A stretch of 64,000 nucleotides of DNA, taken from positions 822,501 to 886,500 of the forward strand of contig NZ_CP083546.1 in NCBI RefSeq assembly GCF_025144145.1, written 5' to 3'. This document shows, one piece after another, positions 26,692 to 54,118 of the stretch. Source of the DNA: Leisingera sp. M658. GTDB taxonomy: Bacteria > Pseudomonadota > Alphaproteobacteria > Rhodobacterales > Rhodobacteraceae. The notes beneath the pieces were generated by a model. That model searched no databases, had not been told where the DNA came from, and saw nothing but the letters and a program-made list of their open reading frames with translations. The first letter of the stretch is position 1. Each line of letters begins with the position of its first letter. Position numbers and translations under genes: made by a program.

Positions 26692-26942
26692 GTGTCTACT
26701 CCTTCAGAGTTGGCGCAGACTCTACATCACGGTGAGGGATTTCGCGGGGGGCAGGTCAACCCAAGACCTGGACGACCTTGCCGCATGGTTCCGGTCGTGC
26801 GGTATTCCCACCGTGGCGATGGAGTCGACCGGCGTTTACTGGATACCGGCCTTTGAGATCCTGGAGGCGCACGGCTTCGAGGTCATCCTTGTGAATGCCC
26901 GCTATGCCAAGAACGTAAGCGGCGTCTCCACCTCACCCTGGA

Positions 26943-27160
26943 TCAGCTTGACAGCTGGAAGTTCCAGGGGAGGAGTTCATCGAGCCGGTTAGCGGGGTGA
27001 CCTGCAGCGATGGCTTCGAGGGTGGCCTTGAGGTAGGCGAAGGGCTCGGCGCCGTTGATCTTTGCCGTGGCGATGAGCGAAGCGATGCGGCCGCAGGCAC
27101 GGCCGCCTTCATCATGGCCGGCGAATAGCGCGTTCTTTCTTGTGAGGGCCAGTTCCCGTT
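26943..27160 (-). pseudogene. IS66 TnpC C-terminal remnant
   Basis: On the minus strand the segment reads LTRKNALFAGHDEGG, then IASLIATAKINGAEPFAYLK and ends LDELLPWNFQLSS plus TGA at 26943-26945. This is the invariant tail of IS66 transposases. The catalytic portion is missing. Confidence 0.85.
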
Positions 27161-27461
27161 CATTCTGCCCATGTCGGGCAGACTTGTCGCGTTCATTATC
27201 GATGGCATGCCTATTTCGGATCAGATGTAACGGTTTTTCGCGCCCTGCGGCGGGGTGACGGCCAGTATGTTGCGCTGGAACGCGATCCCGGGGTCGCGGT
27301 CATGTCGCCGGCCTGGGTCCTAGACGCTTCGGCTTGTTCAGTGATGACACTTGGGTCACCGATGGTCTCGACCGTTGCTTTGGTTGATCTGCATGCAGTT
27401 CTCAGATCTCTGGGGTTCCGGCGAGAATTTGTCGATGAAGGATCGGCAATGAAGGCCGAGC

Positions 27462-27629
27462 ATGATCCCGAAGCATCGAATAGAACAGGCACAGTTGCCC
27501 CTGCCATTTCAACCGAACCCAATAGCGAGACTTTCGAAGGAGGACTGGACAACCGCTCTGACGGTGCTGGCGCAATTGCTGCTGGCGGCCGCCGGGGCCA
27601 ATCCGGAGGAGGTGGAAGATGAGCGTTGA
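27462..27629 (+). CDS. small ORF upstream of recombinase fragment
   Basis: 55 aa from ATG 27462 (MIPKHRIEQAQLPLPFQPNP...). It ends in a TGA that overlaps the ATG of the recombinase fragment by about 11 nt. Small accessory ORFs in this position and overlap are common next to site-specific serine recombinases in alphaproteobacterial elements. Function unknown, and it may be non-functional in this remnant. Confidence 0.4.
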   Translation: MIPKHRIEQAQLPLPFQPNPIARLSKEDWTTALTVLAQLLLAAAGANPEEVEDER

Positions 27630-27755
27630 ACATGGCGCTTCGCTGCCGCCCGCCCTTCTGCAGCGCCGGGCCGTTGTTTATGTCCGGCAATCGACCCAAA
27701 CCCAGGTCATGGTCAATCTGGAGAGTCAGCGTCGGCAATACGATTTGGTTGAGAC
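27619..27755 (+). pseudogene. serine recombinase, N-terminal fragment
   Basis: About 45 residues match the start of the resolvase catalytic domain: RRAVVYVRQSTQTQV, with the nucleophile Ser in RQST, and ESQRRQYDLVETAR. Homology then stops abruptly into an IS66 tnpA fragment. It is a different recombinase type from the C-terminal piece at 1835-2340, so the two are not halves of one gene. Confidence 0.75.
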
Positions 27756-27756
27756 A

Positions 27757-27868
27757 GCGCGTGGGTATCCGCCACAGCCCGGGCCTTGGCTTCATCCGGC
27801 CAACGCCGGTGACCCGACGCGTAGATTTCCACGCCCAACGATTTGAGAAACGAATTTGTAGCGCACAT
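27757..27868 (-). pseudogene. IS66 TnpA N-terminal remnant
   Basis: ATG 27868 on the minus strand gives a short frame with GHRRWPDEAKARAVAD, the start of the IS66 OrfA HTH domain. It then breaks off at the recombinase fragment. Together with the TnpC tail it defines the two edges of the IS66-ended cassette. Confidence 0.7.
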
Positions 27869-28066
27869 TGCGAAACGCACTCCCCACTGTGAGATGTGCA
27901 AGATCTCGCAGCACGGGATAGGCGCTACAACGTGGGGCCGGGACAGCGATTACCCAAGAACGTTCCGGGCCGCAAAACCGATATCAGCGACGCCGGATGG
28001 CTGCGGCAGCTACATTCCTATGGTCTGCTGCGTGGTAGCTTCCGACCCGAGGCCGAGATAGCCACT

Positions 28067-40236: not shown

Positions 40237-40767
40237 GGTGAAAATTCCTTACTGCCACGCCGGCCACTTGGAGTATTTTGAAGTGGCTAGCGACGAGTTC
40301 CCTTGAGGGTAGAACCCGCAAGGTGCATGAGTTCATCAAGCGCTTTTGCCACCTGTTTTTCGATATGCTGGCAAGACCAAGAGTGATCGAGGCTGGCATG
40401 CGGGCATTACCTGACAGTTTCAGTAATGTAAATACATGAGACGCGTAACGTTCTGCATCTGCTGCTCTCTATACCTTCATTGCCACTTGCATCGAAATGG
40501 GCAGCACGATCTCCGCATGCTGCGACGCTCAGGGTCTGCCAGCGTTCCCATCGAGCTCTGCTTAACCGATGTAAAGACCTGTGGCGGGATCAACCAGCAA
40601 GCCGAGGCTATATCACCAGCGCATGGAAGCCTGCTTCAACTACATTGGAAGGGGCAGTTTTCATGTATTAGATGTTCATCAACTCCAAAAACTCAGAGCG
40701 GTGGTCAACCAGTAACTCTGAACAGTGGAGGACGCCTTACGAACGCACAACCCATACAGGGTTAGAC
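40237..40767. other. intergenic region between ABC operon and aldolase 1
   Basis: 531 nt between divergent genes. It must contain the promoters of both transcripts. TGTA-AA-TACA occurs near 40426-40437 as a small dyad. The frames here show no recognisable domain. A leftover gene fragment is possible, but nothing could be identified. Confidence 0.35.
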
Positions 40768-41793
40768 ATGACGAATTTCTATACTGAAGCTTACGCAGAG
40801 CCGACGAAGGAAATGCGGGAAGCAGGAACTTATGCGCCGGTTGGGAACTCCCTAATCGGCGAAGACCCCAGCACCAACGCCCTTCTTGAACGTGCCGCTG
40901 ATTTTTTGGGCAAGGAGGCAGCTCTGTTCATGTCTTCGGGCACGATGTGCAATGAGGTGGCCGTGCGGGCACACACCAGGCCCGGTCAGGAAGTCATCTG
41001 CGAAAAATCCTGCCACATCATCAACTTTGAATGCGGTGGCCCTGCCGCTATAAGCGGTGCCATGATCCACTCGATTGAAGGGGACCGGGGTATGTTCACC
41101 GCCGATCAGCTGTCCGAGGCTATCCGCAGTGGCAACCCCTATTTACCCCAGACCGGCCTGGTTACAGTGGAACAAACCGCGAATATGGCAGGTGGCGCAA
41201 TCTGGCCGCTTGAACAGCTGCGCAAAGTAGCCAACACAGCCAAACAGGCCAACATTCCAACACACATGGATGGCGCCCGACTGATTAACGCGGTCGTTGC
41301 CTCCGGCCATCCAGCTTCGGAAATGACCAAGGGCTATGACAGCGTCTATATGGATTTCTGCAAGGCGCTCAATTGCCCAGTTGGTGCCGTATTGGCCGGC
41401 TCTAAAGAGTTCATTCAGGAAGCGTGGCGCATTCGCCAGATGATCGGTGGGGGGATCCGCCGCACCGGTATGCTGGCAGCCATGGCGAACTATGCCTTGG
41501 ATCACCATGTCGATAGAATTAACGAAGATCACCAACTGGCCCAATACATCGGGGAACGAGTGGGGAACATTAAAGGTGTAGCCTCTGTTGCGGCTGTTGA
41601 AACGAACATCGTGATCATCGACTTCGATCCCGCAGGGCCTGCTGCGCCTGAAATCGTTGCAAAACTGAAAGAGAACAATGTTCTGGTTGGTGCCTTCGGC
41701 AAATACCGGATCCGTGTTGTCACATTCATGGGCCGAACCCTGAAGGACGGCGAAATCCTGTGTTCAGAATTGGATAAAGTCCTGAACGGATAA
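40768..41793 (+). CDS. threonine aldolase/beta-eliminating lyase family enzyme 1
   Basis: 341 aa from ATG 40768; a longer frame from 40672 adds a Ser/Asn-rich unlike leader. PLP fold type I: SSGTMCNEVAVRAHTRPG, HMDGARLINA with the PLP-contact Asp and Arg, and Schiff-base Lys 199 in FCKALNCPVGAVLAGS. It is the first of three paralogues in the same direction. Family reactions are cleavage of beta-hydroxy amino acids to glycine and an aldehyde, or related eliminations. Here CKALNC replaces the usual SKGLG-like motif. Confidence 0.88.
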   Translation: MTNFYTEAYAEPTKEMREAGTYAPVGNSLIGEDPSTNALLERAADFLGKEAALFMSSGTMCNEVAVRAHTRPGQEVICEKSCHIINFECGGPAAISGAMIHSIEGDRGMFTADQLSEAIRSGNPYLPQTGLVTVEQTANMAGGAIWPLEQLRKVANTAKQANIPTHMDGARLINAVVASGHPASEMTKGYDSVYMDFCKALNCPVGAVLAGSKEFIQEAWRIRQMIGGGIRRTGMLAAMANYALDHHVDRINEDHQLAQYIGERVGNIKGVASVAAVETNIVIIDFDPAGPAAPEIVAKLKENNVLVGAFGKYRIRVVTFMGRTLKDGEILCSELDKVLNG

Positions 41794-41934
41794 GCTGCCA
41801 GTCGCCACCGCCCTATTCATACCGGACGGTCGCGACCTAGGGCAGAAGCATACTTGCGTAGATCAGAGCCGATCCTTCGGAACCTGTCTCTTTGCATATC
41901 TTCCCCCCCCCAACACTACGGCAAGACTCTCCAG

Positions 41935-42298
41935 TGAGCTACTCCCCGATCGTTGGACAGTTTCCGCGTAATTAAGCTACTCTCTGCCCCTGCTGACCGA
42001 GCTGGGTTGCGTCTTTCTCAGCCAATTGACCACGTCTGGCGGTCTGCCGCCAAGGGCGGAATGTGGGTGCTTCCGATTGCAGAATTCCACCCATTTTCCA
42101 ACGCCTGCCTTTGCACGCCAAACTGGCTTGCCAGCTCCGCGACCGTTCGCTTGCCCTTCAAAGCCTTAAGCGCAACCTTGGCCTTGAATTCAGGCAAATG
42201 GTTCTTCTGTTTCGACGTCTCTGATCTCCTCTTCGTCGAAGATCAGCAAACAGCAAATCGTAGCTTACGTCAGTGTCCAGATTTCAGGGAGTAGCTCG
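41935..42298 (-). mobile_element. internally deleted IS3-family element
   Basis: 364 bp with inverted ends GAGCTACTCCC at both edges. Reading leftwards, an orfA start (about 42235-42080: HLPEFKAKVALKALKGKRTV, ELASQFGVQ) runs straight into an orfB tail (about 42053-41976: ALGGRPPDVVNWLRK and a stop). About 900 bp of transposase is missing. It is a non-autonomous, MITE-like derivative whose ends match the remnant at 28067-28385. No clear target duplication. Confidence 0.75.
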
Positions 42299-42618
42299 TA
42301 ACTGAACTGACCAATGCCGCCATAGGGCGGGTATATTGTGCCTGGCTGTTCGCTTCGCTCAGCGACCCGGTTGATCTATATCAAAACTGCATGGTAGATC
42401 AATTACACGGCATTGGTATGAATTGCTCTGTCCATGTAAACTCTACTCAACATGCTGTAATTGAACAATAAAAGAAAACACCAACATTGTGTGTCGCCGT
42501 AGTGGATGCCGTCAGAAGTGACCGCCTCCAGTTCGTGCGCAAATGCGGAATGTGACTGCCGCCACGACGTTTTCCGAAGCCGTTCTTCTACAGCCAATAT
42601 TGGATAGGAGCTAAATGG
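42299..42618. promoter_or_regulatory. region upstream of aldolase 2 with FNR-type box
   Basis: 320 nt without a gene. It contains TTGATCTATATCAA at 42371-42384, a perfect TTGAT-N4-ATCAA FNR/FnrL/Dnr-type palindrome. AT-rich sequence follows before aldolase 2, whose start is preceded by TAGGAG. The box is about 235 nt from the start codon, so it could drive a longer leader or an unseen small transcript. Confidence 0.55.
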
Positions 42619-43704
42619 ATGGCAGGAGAAACTACGGGTCGCCAATGGGCACCATTGCCGGCAAGTGCAGATGATGTCGTTGCCGACTTTTACAGTGACA
42701 TGAAGTCGATCCCGACCAAAGGGATGCTGGACGCATTGCTCAATGCTCGTGTTGGTGACGTTCAGAAGGGTGAGGACCCGACAACAACGGAACTGTGTCA
42801 GCGCGTGGCTGAAATGCTGGGCAAAGAGGCGGCGATTTTGCTGCCTACGGGGACAATGTGCAATGAGATTTCCATTAGAATTCATTGCGCTTCAGGCTCT
42901 GAGCTGATTGCTGAAAGATCCTCTCATATCATCAATTTTGAAGCGGGTGGCCCTGCGGCTCTCAGCGGCGTGATGATGCATTCGATCGATGGCGAATTTG
43001 GGCGTTTCACTGCTGAGCAAGTGCGTGCCGCCTATCGGCCGATTTCGCGTTATGCGCCGGAAACCTCGTTGGTAGCAGTCGAACAAACAACAAATCTCGG
43101 CGGTGGCGGAATCTGGAGCTTGGAAGAGCTCGGAGAGATTGCGGAAACCTCGAAATCGCTGGGATTGGCGACACATATGGATGGTGCGCGGTTGTTGAAC
43201 GCCTGTGTGGAAACCGGGGTCTCCGCCAAGCAATATGCGACTGGCTATGACTCTGTCTGGATCGACCTCACCAAGGGATTGGGCGGTTTTTCCGGTGCGG
43301 TTCTGGCCGGGACGGACGACTTTATCAACCACGCCTGGCGCTATGCGCAGCAATGGGGCGGCGGGTTGCGCCAATCCGGTTACATCGCCGCGACCGGGCT
43401 TTATGCGCTGGATAACAATCTTGAACAACTAGCCCGTGACAATGCACTGGCCAAAACCATTGGTGCGCAGATCGCGACCTTGCCGCATATCTCAGAGGTT
43501 TTGCCGGTTGAGACCAACATCGTGATCTTCAATCTGGATGAAAGCGGACCGGATGCGGCAACGGTCGTGTCCAAGTTGCGGGACCAGGGCGTCCGCCTTG
43601 GTGTCTTTGGCGAACGGACGGTTCGGATCGTTACTCATATCGGCGTAGGGCCTGAGGGCGGAGATCTGTTGATCAAACGCCTGCGCGCCCTCCTGGAAGA
43701 ATAG
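42619..43704 (+). CDS. threonine aldolase/beta-eliminating lyase family enzyme 2
   Basis: 361 aa with an N-terminal extension of about 20 residues relative to its paralogues. LLPTGTMCNEISIRIH, THMDGARLLNACVETG and the PLP Lys 219 in DLTKGLGGFSGAVLAG are all present. TAGGAG precedes the ATG. The next paralogue starts 57 nt downstream, so both are likely co-transcribed with proC. Confidence 0.9.
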   Translation: MAGETTGRQWAPLPASADDVVADFYSDMKSIPTKGMLDALLNARVGDVQKGEDPTTTELCQRVAEMLGKEAAILLPTGTMCNEISIRIHCASGSELIAERSSHIINFEAGGPAALSGVMMHSIDGEFGRFTAEQVRAAYRPISRYAPETSLVAVEQTTNLGGGGIWSLEELGEIAETSKSLGLATHMDGARLLNACVETGVSAKQYATGYDSVWIDLTKGLGGFSGAVLAGTDDFINHAWRYAQQWGGGLRQSGYIAATGLYALDNNLEQLARDNALAKTIGAQIATLPHISEVLPVETNIVIFNLDESGPDAATVVSKLRDQGVRLGVFGERTVRIVTHIGVGPEGGDLLIKRLRALLEE

Positions 43705-43761
43705 TTTTCACATTGGCAGCGGTGTGTCCGCCTCTGCAACCGATCATGAAAGATACATGAC

Positions 43762-44781
43762 ATGCGCGACTTTTTCTCAGACACCAAGACGATTCCGACA
43801 CGAGCCATGCGAGAGGCCATCCTTGACGCTCCCGTAGGCGACGAACAAAAAGACGAAGATCCGACAACCCGTGCCCTTTGCGAACGTGTTGCCGCGCTCT
43901 TGGGTAAAGAAGCCGCTATTTTGCTGCCGACTGGTACCTTGTGCAATGAGATTGCGGTCAATGTGCAGACCAACCCGGGCGACGAGGTGATCTGCGAGGA
44001 AAGCTGCCATTTGATTAACTTCGAAACTGGCGGCCCGGCGGCGATCAGCGGCGTGATGATCCGCACCATTGCTGGAGAAAACGGTATCTTTGAACCTGCT
44101 CAGCTGCGGGCGGCAATCAGGCCTGCATCCCGCTATGCGCCGAAGTCGGCGTTGCTGTGTGTTGAACAGACCGCCAATATGGGCGGCGGCACGATCTGGC
44201 CGCTGGAAAAACTCAATGCGGTCGCTGAGATCGCGCATAGCGCCGGATTGGCCACGCATATGGACGGCGCACGGCTCCTGAACGCAAGCGCCGCCACCGG
44301 AATTTCTCCTGCAGACTATGCCGCTGGGTTCGATACGGTGTGGATCGATTTTTCCAAGGCTCTAGGCACTCCGATGGGGGGCGTTCTTGCAGGTTCGGCT
44401 GAGTTCATCCAAGAGGCATGGCGCGCCAAGCAGCAGATGGGCGGGGCCATGCGGCAATCAGGCATTCTTGCGGCGATGTGTCTTTATGGGCTGGATCACC
44501 ACGTTGACCGGCTTTCTGAGGATCACCGTCTGGCCAAGTATCTGGCCGATCAGATCCGCGCGCTGCCACAGGTCGCGCATATGCAACCTGTCGAGACCAA
44601 TATCATCATTTTTGATCTTGATGACAGCGCGCCACTGGCCGCCGATATCGTCGCGGGTATGAAGGCCGACGGCGTTCTGATTGGGGCATTCGGTCCCCGC
44701 AGAATTAGGATCGTCACTCATCTGGATGTTGATATGCAGGCTGGCGAAGACTTGTTGGTGGCCCTGAAAAAGCAGCTGTAA
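43762..44781 (+). CDS. threonine aldolase/beta-eliminating lyase family enzyme 3
   Basis: 339 aa. DFFSDTKTIPTRAMREA at the start, LLPTGTLCNEIAVNVQ, THMDGARLLNAS, and Schiff-base Lys 199 in DFSKALGTPMGGVLAGS. It shares long blocks with enzymes 1 and 2 but is clearly diverged, so the three arose by duplication some time ago and may differ in substrate or stereochemistry. Confidence 0.9.
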   Translation: MRDFFSDTKTIPTRAMREAILDAPVGDEQKDEDPTTRALCERVAALLGKEAAILLPTGTLCNEIAVNVQTNPGDEVICEESCHLINFETGGPAAISGVMIRTIAGENGIFEPAQLRAAIRPASRYAPKSALLCVEQTANMGGGTIWPLEKLNAVAEIAHSAGLATHMDGARLLNASAATGISPADYAAGFDTVWIDFSKALGTPMGGVLAGSAEFIQEAWRAKQQMGGAMRQSGILAAMCLYGLDHHVDRLSEDHRLAKYLADQIRALPQVAHMQPVETNIIIFDLDDSAPLAADIVAGMKADGVLIGAFGPRRIRIVTHLDVDMQAGEDLLVALKKQL

Positions 44782-45670: not shown

Positions 45671-46083
45671 TCCTGCTTCAAGATAGAGCAGTAGGCTCAA
45701 TCAGGGGGTGAGAGAACAATAGCAGTTGTTATTGGTCCGAAGCTGCGTTCCGAAAGCTCTCATGGTGGTGGCCATTGCAAGTCGTGGCCGCGCGCCAAAT
45801 CAGATGCGGGGCTTCCATAACCAACGTAAGCGCCGATCCGCCCTACATTGTAGAGCCTTCCCCATGCTGCGGGATCATTCCCATCTCATGGTGGGGAGTG
45901 CATTGATTTTCGGGTCATTTCCGTCAGGTTGAAGCGGCTTTGATGATGTGACCAGCCCCTGATGGCGCCAATGTGTCAATGTGGTGCTTTATGTGCCGTA
46001 AATTCTTAGCCCTCGGGACGTTTTTCTGGATTCCGGCCGCCGTTAAGCCAAGCATGTTACACGCAATCTATGAGGACAGGAAC

Positions 46084-47379
46084 ATGGATGAAACCCTTCT
46101 GCAGCGACTGCAGGCGGTGGAGCCGCTGATGTGGATCAATCCGGAACTCGGCCCCACTACTGCAGCGCAAGTGCCGGTGCGGCCGGACCAAGTGACGGAA
46201 GCCGAAGCCAACTGGCGTGCGCTGGCACCGCTGTTGCAGCAGTGTTTTGCGGAGCTGGAGGACAGCGGCGGGATGATTGCCTCGGATCTCATCGAAGTGG
46301 CGGAATTGGCCATGGCAATGGGGCAGGGCGCAGGGCGGTTCTTTGTAAAGGGTGACCACGCATTGCCGGTGGCGGGCTCGGTCAAGGCGCGCGGCGGCGT
46401 TTACGAGGTGTTCCTGCATGGGCTTTCGCTGGCGCGGCAGTTGGGGCTGATTGCGCCGGATGCCCCGCCTGCGGCGCTGGCGGGCGGCAAAGTGCGGGAT
46501 CGTTTTGGCAGCTGCACTGTGGCGGTCGGTTCAACCGGCAATCTCGGCCTTAGTGTCGGTATTGCCGCGCGGGCGCTGGGTTTTCGCGCGGTTGTTCATA
46601 TGTCGGCGGACGCCAAGCCCTGGAAAGTCGAGCGCCTGCGCCGCCATGGGGTTGAGGTGGTGCAGCATCAGGCCGATTACGGTACTGCCGTGGCGTCTGC
46701 CCGGCAGCAGGCAGAGGCGGACCCGTCAATTTACTTTGTCGACGATGAGCGCTCGGAACTGCTGTTCTTCGGCTATTCAGCGGCAGCGGCCGAGCTGAGC
46801 GGCCAACTGGTAGAACGAAACATCCCCGTGGACGCTGAGAACCCGCTGTTCCTGTATTTGCCGTGCGGCATAGGTGGTGCTCCGGGCGGGGTGGCATATG
46901 GGCTGAAACAGGTGTTTGGCGATCATGCTCACTGCTTTTTCGTTGAGCCTGCCCAATCGCCTTGCGCGCTGGTGCAATTGGCGTCCGGCCTGAAGCGGGT
47001 GGTCAATGTCTATGACGTGGGCCTGACGAACAAGACCGAGGCCGATGGCATGGCGGTGGCTGAGGTGAGCCAGTTTGTGGTACAGGTCATGCAACCCTTG
47101 CTGAGCGGGGTGTATACTGTCGCGGATGACGATCTGTTCCGTTGGCTGGCGTTGGCGCAAGATCATGCAGGACTGCAGTTGGAGCCTTCAGCGGCAGCCT
47201 GTCTGGGCGGGCCGCAGATGCTGCTCTCAACTGCCGAAGGCCAGGGTTATCTGGCGCAGCACGGGCTTGTGGCAAAAACGGATCAAGCCACCCATGTCAT
47301 GTGGGCCACGGGAGGCAGCCTGGTGCCCGATGAGGAATACCAGAGCTTCCTGCAGCAAGGCCGCGCTTTGCGGGACTGA
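46084..47379 (+). CDS. dsdA: D-serine dehydratase (ammonia-lyase)
   Basis: 431 aa from ATG 46084 (GAGGACAGGA upstream). PLP fold type II with the catalytic Lys in AGSVKARGGVYEVF. The phosphate loop is in VGSTGNLGLSVGI, and KTEADGMAV and WATGGSLVP are as in DsdA. It converts D-serine to pyruvate and ammonia in the cytoplasm. No DsdC regulator or DsdX transporter is adjacent. The Aap transporter and aldolases upstream suggest a wider hydroxy-amino-acid theme. It lies between IS66 ends. Confidence 0.92.
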   Translation: MDETLLQRLQAVEPLMWINPELGPTTAAQVPVRPDQVTEAEANWRALAPLLQQCFAELEDSGGMIASDLIEVAELAMAMGQGAGRFFVKGDHALPVAGSVKARGGVYEVFLHGLSLARQLGLIAPDAPPAALAGGKVRDRFGSCTVAVGSTGNLGLSVGIAARALGFRAVVHMSADAKPWKVERLRRHGVEVVQHQADYGTAVASARQQAEADPSIYFVDDERSELLFFGYSAAAAELSGQLVERNIPVDAENPLFLYLPCGIGGAPGGVAYGLKQVFGDHAHCFFVEPAQSPCALVQLASGLKRVVNVYDVGLTNKTEADGMAVAEVSQFVVQVMQPLLSGVYTVADDDLFRWLALAQDHAGLQLEPSAAACLGGPQMLLSTAEGQGYLAQHGLVAKTDQATHVMWATGGSLVPDEEYQSFLQQGRALRD

Positions 47380-47389
47380 GGGTAGCCCT

Positions 47390-47464
47390 GAAGCCATCGC
47401 TGCAGGTCATTCTGCCAGCCGACTTGACGAACTCCTCCCCTGGAATTTCCAGCCGTCAAGTTGA
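47390..47464 (+). pseudogene. IS66 TnpC C-terminal remnant
   Basis: Twenty-four codons, EAIAAGHSASRLDELLPWNF then QPSS and TGA. They are nearly identical to the TnpC tail at 26943, starting 8 nt after the dsdA stop codon. It marks the right edge of the dsdA cassette. Confidence 0.85.
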
Positions 47465-47586
47465 AAGCCCGGTGTCCGCTAAACGCCACTTATTATCCAA
47501 CGGTCCGATACTCTGGGACCAGGTCGAACCGATGCAGCTAGGCGAGGCTTGGTCAGCTGGGTATGGGAGGTCACTGAAGCTTAGAA

Positions 47587-48084
47587 TTACTTCCGGGCGT
47601 TGGAAATTTTTGCGCAGATGCGAATGATCTCATCCGCCTCCGCCTGTGTCAGCCCGATCCGGGCAAATACATCGGAGGAAACGCTGCAGCTTTTTGTCCA
47701 AATGCTACGCCCTGTGTCCGTCAGGGAGACGACCTTTTGACGCTCGTTGCCCACCTGTACCTCGCGTGACAGCAGGCCTTTCGCTTCCAATCTGCGAAGC
47801 AGAGGTGTCATCGTGGCCTTGGAGACTTCCAGTTTGCTGGCCAGGGTTGAGATGGACACCCTGTCCTCCTCAGCCAAAGCCATGAGTACCAAGTATTGAG
47901 TATAAGTGAGCCCCTGAGCTTTCAGAAGTGTTTGATAATGCTGCTCAACGGTATGCGATGCTGCATAGATTGCGAAGCAAAGCTGGTTGTCCAACCTGAC
48001 ATCTGGCTTTTCATCGGTCTTCAGCGGTTCTTGCAAAACTCTGTGCTTTCGTTGTGGGACTGAGCACCCGTTAGATACCATCAT
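47587..48084 (-). CDS. MarR-family regulator, OhrR-like (module 1)
   Basis: 165 aa from ATG 48084 (GCGGAAAG upstream); a longer frame to 48144 would run into the divergent promoter. LDNQLCFAIYAAS holds the peroxide-sensing Cys (about residue 36) of OhrR proteins. Winged HTH LASKLEVSKATMTPLLRRLE, and a further Cys in TKSCSVSS as in two-Cys OhrR. It is divergent from a catalase-family gene with a 74-nt gap and likely represses it until oxidised by organic hydroperoxides. Confidence 0.88.
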   Translation of the reverse strand: MMVSNGCSVPQRKHRVLQEPLKTDEKPDVRLDNQLCFAIYAASHTVEQHYQTLLKAQGLTYTQYLVLMALAEEDRVSISTLASKLEVSKATMTPLLRRLEAKGLLSREVQVGNERQKVVSLTDTGRSIWTKSCSVSSDVFARIGLTQAEADEIIRICAKISNARK

Positions 48085-48158
48085 TCTTTCCGCTTGCAAA
48101 TAGTTAGCTAGCAAAGTATTAGTTGGCAAATGAAAACAGCTCACAGGAGTACCTAGCT
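48085..48158. promoter_or_regulatory. divergent operator region, OhrR-like/catalase module 1
   Basis: A 74-nt AT-rich gap with two similar blocks, TAGTTAGC and TAGTTGGC, about 21 nt apart, and the hexamer palindrome GCTAGC. Both promoters and the MarR operator must lie here. AGGAG serves the catalase start. Confidence 0.5.
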
Positions 48159-49112
48159 ATGCGCACCGGATTATTTGCCCTCTGTCTTTCGCTGACTTCA
48201 CTGCCCGCCTTCGCCGAAGGTGAGTTTGATACTGAGGGCGGATTTGCTGCCTTTGAGCAACTCTTTGGCGTGACAGAGGGAAAGCGCCGCAACCACACCA
48301 AAGGTTTCTGCATCGAGGGTGAGCTTGTGCCTGTTGACAGCGCGATCAAGGCTTATTCCAACAGCTCGCTCTTCACCGGCACATCGTCGGTAATCGCGCG
48401 CGTATCCCATAAGGGCGGCAAACCTAATCCGGCTGACGACAAATATGGGTTGCTGGGCATGGCGATGGAGATAACGACAGCCGATGATGATCTGCACGTG
48501 ATCGCGATGAACACTGAACATTTCTTTCCTGTTGCGACCAGTGAAGCGTTCATTGAACTGCTGCGGGCCAAGGCCGCAGGGCCAGAGGCGACCAAGGCTT
48601 TCGCTGCTGACCACCCTGCACTTAAAGCCTACAAAGCATATCATGGCGCCTTGGACAAAACCCTGAGGCCCTACGAGGGCACAACTTTCAACGGTGTGAA
48701 TTCCTTCTATCTTGTCGATGCGGCAGGCGCGCAGACGGGTATCCGTTTTTCATTTCGCCCTTCCGGTGAAGAAGGGATCGTGACGGATACGCATCCCGAC
48801 TTCTTCTTGGAAAACATGCAATCGAACATAGCCAACGGTGGAGTGTCCTGGGAGATGGTGGTGACTCTGGCCAATCCAGGAGATGTTATCGCAGACCCCT
48901 CGGTGCAATGGACAGGGGAGCACACCGAGATTGTCGCAGCCCGGTTTACGGCCAAAGCGGCGATGTCAGAAAGCGATGGCCAGTGTGATGACCTCAACTT
49001 CGACCCCATGGTTCTGAGCGAAGGCTTTGCGCCGTCGGAAGACCCAATGCTGCTGGTGCGCTCCATGATCTATGCTCATGGTGTTGGGCAGCGTCTCTCC
49101 GAAAAGGACTGA
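48159..49112 (+). CDS. periplasmic catalase-family (SrpA-like) peroxidase
   Basis: 317 aa from ATG 48159 (AGGAG 9 nt upstream). A signal peptide (residues 1-20, LPAFA-EG) sends it to the periplasm. It is a small catalase-related protein: distal His 46 in NHTKGFCIEG, and the proximal heme ligand in RSMIYAHGVG (R-x3-Y). It is much shorter than true catalases (about 480 aa), so peroxidase activity is more likely than strong dismutation. Expression likely follows the divergent OhrR-like regulator. Confidence 0.85.
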   Translation: MRTGLFALCLSLTSLPAFAEGEFDTEGGFAAFEQLFGVTEGKRRNHTKGFCIEGELVPVDSAIKAYSNSSLFTGTSSVIARVSHKGGKPNPADDKYGLLGMAMEITTADDDLHVIAMNTEHFFPVATSEAFIELLRAKAAGPEATKAFAADHPALKAYKAYHGALDKTLRPYEGTTFNGVNSFYLVDAAGAQTGIRFSFRPSGEEGIVTDTHPDFFLENMQSNIANGGVSWEMVVTLANPGDVIADPSVQWTGEHTEIVAARFTAKAAMSESDGQCDDLNFDPMVLSEGFAPSEDPMLLVRSMIYAHGVGQRLSEKD

Positions 49113-49502: not shown

Positions 49503-49799
49503 CTACCGCAGCGGCTGGTTCTTGACCCGAGCGATAATGTCCGGTTCCCCGACGAAGTCATCGAGGAAGCTGTGCCATGTCTCAACGGACACACGTGCTG
49601 ACGCCAGCATGTCGCGCAATTCGTGGATGCCCTCGTCGGTCAGTGCCGTAATGTAGTCGTCGCGTCCGATGTGGACGCTAACTATGTTGCCGTAGGAGAG
49701 GTTGTCGTCGTTGCTAACAATAACCTCGAGAAGTCCGGGATCTTCTCTCAGCAGGTCGGCGGCATGGGCGATGGAGCAGACGTAGGTCGTGGCTGCCAT
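49503..49799 (-). CDS. IS66-borne accessory protein, unknown function
   Basis: 98 aa. The start codon overlaps the tnpC stop (TAATG at 49797-49801), so it is translationally coupled and part of the IS transcript. Acidic and soluble; contains HIGRDDYITALTDEGIHELR. It is not one of the three canonical IS66 proteins. Not recognised; a passenger or a regulator of transposition are both possible. Confidence 0.65.
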   Translation of the reverse strand: MAATTYVCSIAHAADLLREDPGLLEVIVSNDDNLSYGNIVSVHIGRDDYITALTDEGIHELRDMLASARVSVETWHSFLDDFVGEPDIIARVKNQPLR

Positions 49800-51451
49800 T
49801 ACGCAGCCTCGTTGCGTGTTTGATCTGCCGGCTTCCAATTCCAAGGAAGCAATTCGGCCAGCCGGTCGACCATGTGATCGAGGATGCGGTCCAAGACATC
49901 TGCAAGGTAGGCCTGAGGATCGAGGCCGTTCATCTTTGCCGTCTCGATGACGGTCATCGCGCGGGCGAGCGTGTTACCGCCGGTATCCGAACCCGCGAAT
50001 AGCCAGTTTCGCCTGCCGGCGCCAATGGGCCGCAGCGCGCGCTCGGCGGGATTGTTGTCGATAGCCGCGCGCCCGTCCTCCAGGAACAGCGTGAACGAGG
50101 GCCAGCGGCTCAGCCCGTAGCGGAACGCCTTGGCCAGATCACTCTTGCCGGGAATGCGCGTGAGCTGCTTTTCGGCCCAGTCCCGGAACGCATCGGCCTT
50201 GGGCTTGCTTTCCTTTTGGCGCACGGCCAGCCGCAACTCGGCAGGCTTGCCGCTGATTTCCCGTTCGATGTCGTACAGCGCTCCGATACGGTCGAGTGCC
50301 TCACGCGCGATTTCGGATTTCGTTGCTGTCCAGACATCGTGGAAGTCGCGCCGAAGATGCGCCCAACACGCGGTCTCCCGGAACTGGCTCTTGCCGTCCA
50401 GGTCCGCGGCATAGAGCTTGGCATAGCCCTTGTAGCCATCCGCCTGGAGAATGCCGCTGGTCTCGCCAAGATGGGCAAGCACATGCTCTTCCTTCCAGTC
50501 CGGGGCAAAGTGATAGACCGCTCCGGGCGGAGCCGTGCCCGCCCATGGGCGCTGATCGCGGACATAGGCCCAGATCCGGCCTTTTTTGACGCCCTTTCCA
50601 AGCCCCTTGTCGCGCCGACCTCGGTCGAGAACCCGGATGGGCGTGTCATCTGCGTGCAGAAGATCGCTGGCCATGATCTCGGCCTCGATTTTCTCGATCT
50701 TCTCGATCAGCGGCGCCAGCGTCCTCATCGCACCGCCGCACCAGTCGACCAGGGTCGTGTCCGGGATGTCCGCGCCCATGCGGGCGAAGATCTCATTCTG
50801 GCGATACAACGGCACGTGGTCGTCGAATTTCGAGGTCAGCACATAAGCCAGAAGGTTCGGGCCCGCCATGCTGCGGGGAATGGGACGGCTGGGCGCGGGG
50901 TTCTGAACGATCTTTTCGCAGCGCCGACAGGATTTTTTGATGCGCGCGATCTCGATGACCTTCAGCTTGGCTGCGATCATGTCGACCAACTCGCTGACAT
51001 CCTCCCCGATCACCCGCAGATCGCCTCCGCAATCCGGGCAACTGTCTCCGGGATCAAGCTCGCGGCGCTCGCGCGGCGTGTCCTTCGACACCTTCGGACG
51101 GCGGCGCTTCGGGTCCCGCGGCGCGGCTGGTTCCGGGGTCTGGCTGTCCGTCTCCGGCTCCTCACCGCCATCCGACAGCAGTTCATCCGCCTCGGCGAGT
51201 GCAACCCGCAAGTCTTCCAGCGCCAGTTCCAGTTGTTCGATCTCGCGTTCGATCTTTTCCGAACTGGAGCCGAATTTCTGCTTCTGCAATCTGACGATCC
51301 GGACACGCAACGCCTGAACCAGCAGATCATGGGCCCGCAAACTGGCAGATATCTTCTGGTTTTCCGCCTGCAACGCGGCGATCATTGCCTTCAGAACGGC
51401 GGGGTCGTTGGGGAGAGGCATGGCTTCTGCGGACATGGCCGTGGATACCAT
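49799..51451 (-). CDS. IS66 transposase TnpC
   Basis: 550 aa from ATG 51451 (GGAGGT immediately upstream; ATG 51436 is an alternative, and a longer frame overlaps tnpB). N-terminal leucine-rich coiled segment, zinc-binding CPDCGGDLRVIGEDVSE with CRRCEK, the transposase core with DLLHADDTPIRVLDRG and YKGYAKLYAADLDG. The C-terminal AIDNNPAERALRPI is followed by NWLFAGSDTGG and the LLPWNW tail. This is the DDE enzyme of the element. Confidence 0.92.
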   Translation of the reverse strand: MVSTAMSAEAMPLPNDPAVLKAMIAALQAENQKISASLRAHDLLVQALRVRIVRLQKQKFGSSSEKIEREIEQLELALEDLRVALAEADELLSDGGEEPETDSQTPEPAAPRDPKRRRPKVSKDTPRERRELDPGDSCPDCGGDLRVIGEDVSELVDMIAAKLKVIEIARIKKSCRRCEKIVQNPAPSRPIPRSMAGPNLLAYVLTSKFDDHVPLYRQNEIFARMGADIPDTTLVDWCGGAMRTLAPLIEKIEKIEAEIMASDLLHADDTPIRVLDRGRRDKGLGKGVKKGRIWAYVRDQRPWAGTAPPGAVYHFAPDWKEEHVLAHLGETSGILQADGYKGYAKLYAADLDGKSQFRETACWAHLRRDFHDVWTATKSEIAREALDRIGALYDIEREISGKPAELRLAVRQKESKPKADAFRDWAEKQLTRIPGKSDLAKAFRYGLSRWPSFTLFLEDGRAAIDNNPAERALRPIGAGRRNWLFAGSDTGGNTLARAMTVIETAKMNGLDPQAYLADVLDRILDHMVDRLAELLPWNWKPADQTRNEAA

Positions 51452-51498
51452 ACCTCCAGTCCAGACACCATAAAAACAAGAGATTCCAGAGGGATAAA

Positions 51499-51846
51499 TC
51501 AGCCTGTCCGGGCTGGTGGCGCGCCCCAATCCGGCCTGCGCCAGTCGATCCCCTCCCAGAGCATGGCCAACTGATCGGCGGTCAGGCGCACGCTGCCATC
51601 CGTCGCCGCGGGCCATGGGAAACGCCCTTTCTCGAGGACTTTGTAATAAAGGCAAAAGCCCTGGCCATCCCAATACAAAAGTTTCACCCTGTCGCCGCGG
51701 CGCCCCCGGAATGCGAACACGGCACCGTTTGACGGCCTCTGCCGCAAGACATCCTGCGCGATGGCGGACAGGCCCGCGATACCCATGCGCATATCAGTGT
51801 GACCGCAAGCCAGGTAAACGCGAACGCCGGTGCCTGGGCCGATCAT
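51499..51846 (-). CDS. IS66 accessory protein TnpB
   Basis: 115 aa with the IS66 Orf2 signature: VYLACGHTDMRMGIAGLSAI, FAFRGRRGDRVKLLYWDGQG and KVLEKGRFPWP. It overlaps tnpA by 4 nt. Required together with TnpA and TnpC for transposition of IS66 elements. Confidence 0.95.
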   Translation of the reverse strand: MIGPGTGVRVYLACGHTDMRMGIAGLSAIAQDVLRQRPSNGAVFAFRGRRGDRVKLLYWDGQGFCLYYKVLEKGRFPWPAATDGSVRLTADQLAMLWEGIDWRRPDWGAPPARTG

Positions 51847-52247
51847 GCCGCCTCCACCGCTTGGATCAAACGGGTCAGCACCGCCGGGTCCAAATGGGCA
51901 TCGACCCGCAAGCTGCGGCTATTGCGTAAAACCACCTCGATCAGCGCCGAGTTCGCTTCAGAGGTGCAAGGTTCCAGCGGACCGGGCGGCAGCGCCGGAA
52001 TATCAACCGGCAAAAACAGCGCGGTGTCGTCAGGCCCCAGAAGCCCCTTCCTCCTCAGCTCGTATCGCCAGGCATAAATCTGCTGCCGTCTGATCTCGTG
52101 GCGCTGTGAGACCTGCGACACGGTCGCGCCGTTCACCCCAACCGAAAGCACAATCGCCAACTTCTCGTCGTCACTCCATCGGCGCCGACGTTTCAAGCCC
52201 AGAATTTCGCCCCGCACAGCTGTCTCCATCCCTGTAGGAGACGTCAT
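51843..52247 (-). CDS. IS66 accessory protein TnpA
   Basis: 134 aa. HTH region RRRWSDDEKLAIVLSVGVNG followed by VSQVSQRHEIRRQQIYAWRY, typical of IS66 Orf1. First gene of the IS66 operon, 73 nt from the element's right end. Confidence 0.93.
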   Translation of the reverse strand: MTSPTGMETAVRGEILGLKRRRRWSDDEKLAIVLSVGVNGATVSQVSQRHEIRRQQIYAWRYELRRKGLLGPDDTALFLPVDIPALPPGPLEPCTSEANSALIEVVLRNSRSLRVDAHLDPAVLTRLIQAVEAA

Positions 52248-52606: not shown

Positions 52607-53062
52607 CTAAGTGGCAGTGCGGTCTTTCGGAGCGCTCTTCAGGTTATCGGTAAGGCGGGAAAGGCCGTCCGTGATCTGCTTCAGCGCATCAAGCTCAAGA
52701 CCGGTGGCTTCGATTAGGCAGGAAGTGATCTCGCGGGAAGCCGCATGAAGTGCAATGCCATCGTCTGTCAAGTGAACAAAAACTTGCCGCTCATCGTCCG
52801 TGCCTCGCATCCGCCACACAAACCCCATGTTCTCAAGTCTTTTTAACAGAGGTGTCAGGGTGCTCGTCTTCAGTGACAATTGAGCTGCAAGTTCGCTGAC
52901 ACCTTGTTGGTCCCGCTCCCATAGCAGCATCAAGGTGATGTATTGTGGATATGTTAAGCCAAGAGGGCGGAGCATCGGCCCATAGACTTGGTTGATGGCA
53001 TGCGAAGCATTGTACACTGCGTAGCAGAACATCTCATCGGCTTTTTCAGGCAGATTGTTCAT
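52607..53062 (-). CDS. MarR-family regulator, OhrR-like (module 2)
   Basis: 151 aa from ATG 53062 (GGAA upstream); a longer frame to 53146 is less likely. MFCYAVYNASHAI carries the N-terminal sensing Cys (residue 13). HTH LAAQLSLKTSTLTPLLKRLE, and a second Cys in EITSCLIEATG. It is the same type as the regulator at 47587 and is likewise divergent from a catalase-family gene, so the two modules are paralogous in design. Confidence 0.88.
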   Translation of the reverse strand: MNNLPEKADEMFCYAVYNASHAINQVYGPMLRPLGLTYPQYITLMLLWERDQQGVSELAAQLSLKTSTLTPLLKRLENMGFVWRMRGTDDERQVFVHLTDDGIALHAASREITSCLIEATGLELDALKQITDGLSRLTDNLKSAPKDRTAT

Positions 53063-53221
53063 CCTGGTTCCGAGATCCTCAAATATATCGTGTGCGATAC
53101 TTTTGCTTGACGACTGCTGGGAGTCAAGATTAGTGTCAGGCCACAAAGTGTCGTGCGCGATCTAAATTGCGCAAATTCTGACCGTGGTTCTTGCGGTTGC
53201 CGAAAGGAGGAGTGGAAGACG
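53063..53221. promoter_or_regulatory. divergent operator region, OhrR-like/catalase module 2
   Basis: 159 nt with two dyads: ATCG-TGTG-CGAT around 53088-53099 and the perfect TTGCGCAA (53167-53174) framed by AAT/ATT. Either could be the operator. AAGGAGGAG serves the catalase start. Confidence 0.5.
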
Positions 53222-54118
53222 ATGTCACAGGCCATAGAGCTGATTGATGCCTTAAACGGAACATTTGGCCGCCACAGCGGCGCCCGCGCTTCACATGCGA
53301 AAGGGTTTTCTGCCAGAGGTCGCTTCATTCCAGCGGCCGTAGGTCCCGGGACCGATATCCCGTTGCTCGCTGAAGAACAGCCAATAACTGCACGCTTTTC
53401 GGTTGGCGGAGGAAAGCCCGGAATCAGTGACAAAAGCCCTACAGTCCGCGGTATCGGGCTTGAAATTGGAAAGGGCGCCGGGGCTTGGGTCATGGCCCTG
53501 ATTTCCAATCCGGTTTTCTTTGCCAATTCCGCGGAACAGTTTAAGGCCTTTCTGGCAGCAAGGGTGGCCGATCCTGCAACCGGTGGGCCGGATCCTGAAA
53601 AGGTTAAGGCATTTAACGAGGCGAACCCGAATACGGTTCCCCATCAGAGCTATCTGAAGTCCGTGGCGCCTTGCCGGTGTTATTCTGCAGAACAGTATCA
53701 TTCAGGCCATGCTTACCACTTCGGTACCGGCGAAGGCGTGCTTGCGGCCCGTATCTTTCTGGAGCCTGAAGGCGGCCGCCACGGCCTGACAGATGAGGAA
53801 AAGAAGGATCTGCCGGATGATTTCCTTTATGACAGGCTGCTGCGGGAGTTGAGTAACAGGCCTGCCCGATGGACGCTGAAGCTGGTTGTGGCGAATGATG
53901 CGGATGATATCTCGGATCCAACCGTCCCATGGGATGGGGTGCATGGCGAACTGATCCTTGGAACGGTGCAAATCGAGTTGCCGGATGACCGGGCCGAGAG
54001 CGTTGCCAAAGTGTTTGACCCCTCTCATTTGCCAGAGGGGGTGGCAGAGCCTCACGATAATGTATTCGCCCTGCGCAGTCCTGCATATGCGGTCTCTGTT
54101 GCGCGCCGGTCCAGTTGA
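53222..54118 (+). CDS. cytoplasmic catalase-family peroxidase
   Basis: 298 aa from ATG 53222, with AGGAGG upstream; the frame from 53153 would precede that site. No signal peptide. Distal His 25 in ASHAKGFSARG, the block ITARFSVGGGKPGISDKSPTVRGIG, and the proximal ligand in LRSPAYAVS (R-x3-Y). It is a catalase core protein of the SrpA/mini-catalase kind. It pairs with the periplasmic enzyme at 48159 to cover both compartments. Confidence 0.87.
   Translation: MSQAIELIDALNGTFGRHSGARASHAKGFSARGRFIPAAVGPGTDIPLLAEEQPITARFSVGGGKPGISDKSPTVRGIGLEIGKGAGAWVMALISNPVFFANSAEQFKAFLAARVADPATGGPDPEKVKAFNEANPNTVPHQSYLKSVAPCRCYSAEQYHSGHAYHFGTGEGVLAARIFLEPEGGRHGLTDEEKKDLPDDFLYDRLLRELSNRPARWTLKLVVANDADDISDPTVPWDGVHGELILGTVQIELPDDRAESVAKVFDPSHLPEGVAEPHDNVFALRSPAYAVSVARRSS

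Follow-up and report, generated by a model that had tools for sequence, protein, structure and literature searches.

An intact dsdA gene between IS66-family ends in a Leisingera chromosome: a possible relic of transposition by a transposase-less unit

Mobile insertion cassettes are described as units with a pair of inverted-repeat ends and a duplicated target site on either side of a gene other than a transposase, no transposase lying nearby; for one of them, MIC231A1, the IS231A transposase is reported to act in trans as the mobilising enzyme (PMC3913671). Passenger genes, probably derived from the chromosome, are also enclosed by IS66 ends in the tIS66 elements such as ISPa75-fosZ. ISPa75 is reported to retain tnpA and tnpB as well as the gene for the DDE transposase, downstream of which its passenger is placed, and 159 strains carrying it to share ten target duplications (PMC12888890).

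The locus described here is located in a Leisingera chromosome, within a stretch of 64,000 nucleotides (G000:C1:822501-886500; hereafter the window, to which all positions refer unless a contig or locus is named). A unit of 1,668 bp (45826-47493), with all its parts on the forward strand, starts with an IS66 left, or tnpA-side, end of 79 bp (45826-45904), followed by 28 bp that were matched to no recognised source and by a left-end remnant of a putative IS110-type element (45933-45984), which is joined to DNA from upstream of dsdA. This remnant of about 50 bp, missed in the first-pass annotation, matches G000:C1:1044477-1044528 with 79% identity across 52 bp (E 9.4e-6) and is 80-82% identical over 49-50 bp to L026, L033 and L019; we take it to be of IS110 type from an N-terminal motif beside the end in L026, L033 and L145. 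About 100 bp of glyA-dsdA intergenic DNA (45983-46083) has been kept 5' of dsdA, as seen in a DNA alignment to the ANG-M1 locus (L099) that runs from 45983 to the dsdA stop codon at 81% identity overall. The gene itself (46084-47379) is intact and encodes a D-serine ammonia-lyase of 431 residues, which scores above the cutoff for both NCBIfam equivalogs, NF002823 and TIGR02035. The IS66 right end (47380-47493) consists of approximately 28 final TnpC codons, the stop codon and the terminus; it can be aligned from 47386, starts at most 7 bases past the dsdA stop codon, and has a TnpC tail corresponding to residues 489-516 at 79% identity.

Between the two ends, neither tnpA nor tnpB was recognised and tnpC is reduced to about 28 codons. 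The slot that tnpABC would fill, ahead of the TnpC tail, is taken up by dsdA. What was recognised there is limited to dsdA and short IS66 and IS110-type fragments, that is, a cargo with no transposase gene, as in a mobile insertion cassette. The initial description of an intact dsdA lying between a tnpA-side end and a TnpC-tail end of IS66, with no transposase gene, was borne out when both ends were aligned to IS66 copies of the genus. The IS110-type remnant found at the left junction means that the interior was shaped by more than one rearrangement, and the mosaic structure suggests several.

Both ends carry the marks of the IS66 family, namely a terminal sequence of the form GTAA... and the C-terminal tail of TnpC, and on its own strand the right terminus reads ATAAGTGG. 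The left end is 76-78% identical over about 80 bp to the tnpA-side ends of other Leisingera copies (L094, L097 and L108), the value for L102 being 72%, while the right end (47386-47492) is 82-88% identical over 98-108 bp to the TnpC-tail ends of the genus. Full-length relatives measure 2,477 bp (L094, in G017) and 2,829 bp (L096 and L097, two copies in G002), and the left and right ends of L097 were matched in 11 and 12 of the 21 genus genomes, respectively, counting the source genome. Within a plasmid collection, the best matches to the left end (78.8% over 66 bp, one record) and to the right end (86.1%, 16 records) were both found on a plasmid of Leisingera sp. NJS204. The right terminus of the unit is altered, with CCACTTAT in the place of the CCGCTTAC of most other copies. 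Given this alteration and the levels of identity, the ends are either old or derived from a divergent IS66 subgroup. The complete IS66 of the same window (49799-52247) was considered as the parent and rejected, its match to the DNA of the cassette ends being limited to a 40-bp stretch of the TnpC tail. That element, which belongs to a different clade, is itself flanked by two pairs of MarR and catalase-like genes in the same arrangement (47587-49112 and 52607-54118).

The 8-mers TAACCAAC (45818-45825) and TATCCAAC (47494-47501) sit exactly at the two termini of the unit and agree at 7 of 8 positions, which confirms the earlier observation that they differ at one base. It had also been stated that IS66 makes 8-bp duplications, and these are present on the related copies L094, L097, L151 and L160; those of L097 and L094 are perfect (GCTTTGCA, ATTTCTCA) and fix the IS66 termini. 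A match of at least 7/8 occurs in 0.056% of random 8-mer pairs from the window (a chance of about 0.0006 with fixed ends) and in 0.38% when a shift of one base is allowed at each end. As a control, 12 IS66 copies with both ends, the dsdA unit among them, were examined with termini sought within 6 bases and GTA/TAC ends preferred. A duplication of at least 7/8 was found in 8 of the 12, the dsdA unit included, with L096 counted only through a one-base slip and the extrapolated ends of L152 and L160 corrected by one base; L102, L149, L150 and L161 fell below 7/8. Because the flanks agree at 7/8 with so small a chance expectation, and because duplications of 8 bp are also generated by related IS66 copies, it is very probable that the two ends stem from a single insertion. 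The duplication shows that the ends were inserted jointly, not that dsdA was already inside, since it arises when the ends insert and is silent on when the interior was exchanged.

A dN/dS of 0.08 was obtained for dsdA against Leisingera sp. ANG-M1, equal to the value between ANG-M1 and ANG-Vp. As this is the level of native copies, the relocated gene is probably functional, and much of the divergence behind this figure may predate the move. In the protein tree, the DsdA of the window groups with those of ANG-Vp, ANG-M1 and M382 (4 rows, 99/96), from which it is parted at a fork with support of 97/78. A DNA search in which the best two candidates per genome were scored found dsdA in 3 of the 21 genus genomes, including the source genome. 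A horizontal origin of the gene was considered and found unsupported: with one core gene compared, the dS values of dsdA and core proC are 0.89/0.62 against ANG-M1 and 0.90/0.51 against ANG-Vp, ratios similar to the 0.68/0.43 between ANG-M1 and ANG-Vp.

In the closest relatives, dsdA lies 3' of glyA (serine hydroxymethyltransferase) and faces an AraC-type regulator beside sarcosine oxidase genes, with no IS66 ends. The sarcosine-oxidase neighbourhood was seen in ANG-M1, where the oxidase was named from the ORF sequence, on plasmid NZ_CP123585.1 of Alisedimentitalea scapharcae, and on plasmid CP081101.1 of Rhodobacteraceae M382, where one gene of the neighbourhood is annotated merely as hypothetical. 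The genes glyA, dsdA and araC are clustered in ANG-M1, M382, A. scapharcae and a Phaeobacter MAG; ANG-Vp has glyA-dsdA, with an araC match of just 58 residues. Across the 36 retrieved dsdA loci, glyA is directly upstream in 9, which represent 7 distinct ones (ANG-M1, ANG-Vp, M382, L115, L118, L119 and L125). It is not directly upstream in the other 27, which are mostly more distant; they include L111-L113 and L127, whose flanks are short, and glyA lies 3 kb downstream in L116. These 27 loci rule out glyA-dsdA adjacency as a universal arrangement. A separate loss of dsdA by decay was observed at L192:6530-6990 (G008:C51), where glyA and araC are kept with just remnants of dsdA between them. The best glyA match in the source genome is merely 58% identical, and therefore the linked glyA is absent from it. 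A relocation of dsdA away from the glyA-dsdA position of its closest relatives is supported by these comparisons, and its IS66-bounded place would most simply be the derived state, because glyA-dsdA has been retained by ANG-Vp, ANG-M1 and M382 as well as by the Phaeobacter MAG that falls just outside this group.

A second copy of the unit was found neither in 148 genomes of relatives, nor in 394 genomes of the family queried with the unit interior, nor in 390 genomes of the order queried with the whole unit; the best two candidates per genome were scored in each case, and the sets, which overlap and include the source genome, are samples and not exhaustive. There was likewise none among 30 dsdA loci from a GTDB scan, and none of the 106 matching records of the plasmid collection covered 80% of the query. 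The cassette ends were matched at 0 of the 36 retrieved dsdA loci, some of which are duplicated, four of which have flanks of only 1.5 kb and a few of which are cut by contig ends, a later dsdA locus (L198) standing outside this comparison; a distant IS66 lies about 4 kb from dsdA in L125. Of the several copies or sites from which the transposition of a mobile insertion cassette would be seen, the sampled sets gave 0 further copies.

Upstream of the unit, the window holds three tandem paralogues of a PLP-dependent aldolase followed by an accessory proC (40726-44781); within the other 20 genomes of the genus, the nearest proC to it, at 56% identity, is that of G002, where one aldolase gene also lies close by. 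Synteny of dsdA with proC and the aldolases in strains lacking IS66, named at the outset as the observation that could overturn the cassette reading, was absent from the 38 loci compared at E 1e-15 (L104, L105 and the 36 dsdA loci). The sole locus with both proC (56%) and a single place to which all three aldolases match was L104, and dsdA is missing from it. In G002, the nearest sampled relative (core proC 94.6%), no dsdA match was found and the proC of the window was matched at just 56%, and in G004 the right-side homology to the window begins at 47614, inside marR.

Other IS66 derivatives of the genus provide a frame for the unit. The element at 26915-27953, which the first-pass annotation had taken for a cassette with the same ends, contains a piece of a nested element enclosed by IS66 reference positions 1-189 on one side and about 2594-2829 on the other, and is flanked by a perfect GTTCTTGG duplication. 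Its ends are of the same family as those of the dsdA unit but not of the same sequence (77.5% identity on the left, 85% on the right). The nested element, presumably of the serine-recombinase type, sits in tnpC and encodes proteins resembling those in L093 and L095. The whole, which also has an inner deletion, is an IS66 that decayed after a recombinase-type element had become nested in it, a case of decay rather than cargo. A 6.5-kb IS66 in G019 (L093/L151) contains a related nested element and has a perfect TGAGTTGC duplication, and L095 (G014) shares part of the interior. Same-clade copies with no host gene exist as a 308-bp MITE-like form in two Leisingera genomes (L152:427-734, in G001:C22; L102:3968-4275, in G013:C137). 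Both share an inner junction at reference positions 189/2708; the copy in G001 has a 7/8 duplication and that in G013 has none. Transposase-less IS66 forms with both ends are therefore present in the genus, and none of the non-autonomous copies examined, other than the dsdA unit, contains a host gene.

Transposition of the unit as a whole appears likely, and at about even confidence we regard 45826-47493 as the relic of a unit with IS66 ends and no transposase that transposed once with dsdA as its cargo. From the observed ends, the near-perfect duplication, the intact dsdA of low dN/dS, its place off glyA-dsdA and the IS110-type remnant, we infer a donor site and a move in trans. At the donor site, dsdA would have been flanked by IS elements, either as a composite of two IS66 copies or as a single IS66 that deletions and the insertion of an IS110-type element had rearranged. 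With their inner parts lost, the gene would have remained enclosed by the outer end of the left side and that of the right; TnpABC of an IS66 would then have moved the unit once, in trans, to the site beside proC, where its ends decayed and it probably ceased to be mobile. Ends and duplication that are exactly terminal, a dsdA that is intact and off its native cluster, and the non-autonomous IS66 forms of the genus argue for this account; the single copy, the lack of a host gene in the other non-autonomous copies, the missing duplication of the G013 copy and the mosaic interior argue against it. The same duplication is also expected if dsdA entered a resident IS66 later. In that case an ordinary IS66 would have landed beside proC, and illegitimate recombination with incoming or relocated DNA would have exchanged tnpABC for dsdA, which never travelled inside the ends. 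We hold this to be a real, if lesser, possibility, consistent with a single copy in the searched sets, with the mosaic interior and its IS110-type remnant, with the foreign inserts or inner deletions of genus IS66 copies elsewhere, and with a dsdA that stands where tnpABC would be and precedes the TnpC tail, unlike the passenger fosZ of ISPa75, which lies downstream of tnpC. However, it requires a clean swap in which the dsdA stop codon stayed intact and about 100 bp of upstream DNA was preserved, and outside these approximately 100 bp no homology was seen between the glyA-dsdA locus and the place where the unit sits.

That two separate IS66 insertions flank dsdA, having decayed independently and with a duplication due to chance, is improbable: the unequal divergence of the left (72-78%) and right (82-88%) ends and the mismatched duplication base would fit, but a 7/8 match at exactly terminal positions has a chance of about 0.0006 with fixed ends, and the order and orientation of the ends fit one element. 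Very improbable is a mobile insertion cassette that is currently active and spreading dsdA among roseobacters. Both ends and an intact cargo gene are in place, and the terminal G-to-A change on the right is not disqualifying by itself, nor proof of immobility, because L160 has the same altered base yet a perfect duplication; against this, no other copy was found in the searched sets, and no intact cognate tnpC was found in the source genome. The tnpC copies at 74-91% identity are all in pieces there, the nearest frame without interruption has 61% identity and sets in at residue 68, and the other long frames, including one in the window, are 40-42% identical. As the right terminus is altered and an intact cognate transposase was not found in the source genome, the unit has probably lost its mobility. 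Of the proposal of a mobile cassette moved in trans, the placement of dsdA in one IS66 unit off its native site is supported, while the proposed movement in trans is left unproven by the single copy, with no occupied or empty site found elsewhere in the sampled sets, by the altered right terminus and by the lack of an intact cognate transposase among the frames of the source genome.

If the unit moved as one piece, as in the relic reading preferred here, the range of transposase-less cassettes bounded by IS ends would come to include IS66, with a metabolic gene as cargo and a marine bacterium as host, and the case would show how a single gene can leave its operon while selection on it persists in its new place. 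Should the unit have formed in situ, the case would warn that IS ends and a duplicated target on both sides of a gene are by themselves no proof of transport. More broadly, we suggest with considerable doubt that roseobacter IS66 elements might lose tnpABC and take up metabolic genes of the host, forming transposase-less cassettes moved in trans, a catabolic gene such as dsdA thereby leaving its operon singly and becoming fixed beside other amino-acid genes.

Among known systems, the dsdA unit resembles mobile insertion cassettes, such as MIC231 of Bacillus cereus and the qnrD mic elements, in having ends and a duplication around a non-transposase gene, and differs from MIC231A1 in its IS66 ends, its one known copy and its putative mobility (PMC3913671). 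With ISPa75-fosZ it shares a passenger gene between IS66 ends; unlike ISPa75, it lacks tnpABC and has dsdA upstream of the TnpC tail (PMC12888890). The full tnpA, tnpB and tnpC plus passenger of a tIS66 are reduced here to about 28 tnpC codons and dsdA. The MITE-like IS66 forms of Leisingera (G001:C22 and G013:C137) are similar in being internally deleted with both ends of the same clade, and different in being geneless, 308 bp long and joined at the inner junction 189/2708. The unit is best filed beside the mobile insertion cassettes, whose defining sign of repeated movement had no instance in the searched samples, and as a mobile-insertion-cassette-like IS66 relic it is of a known kind.
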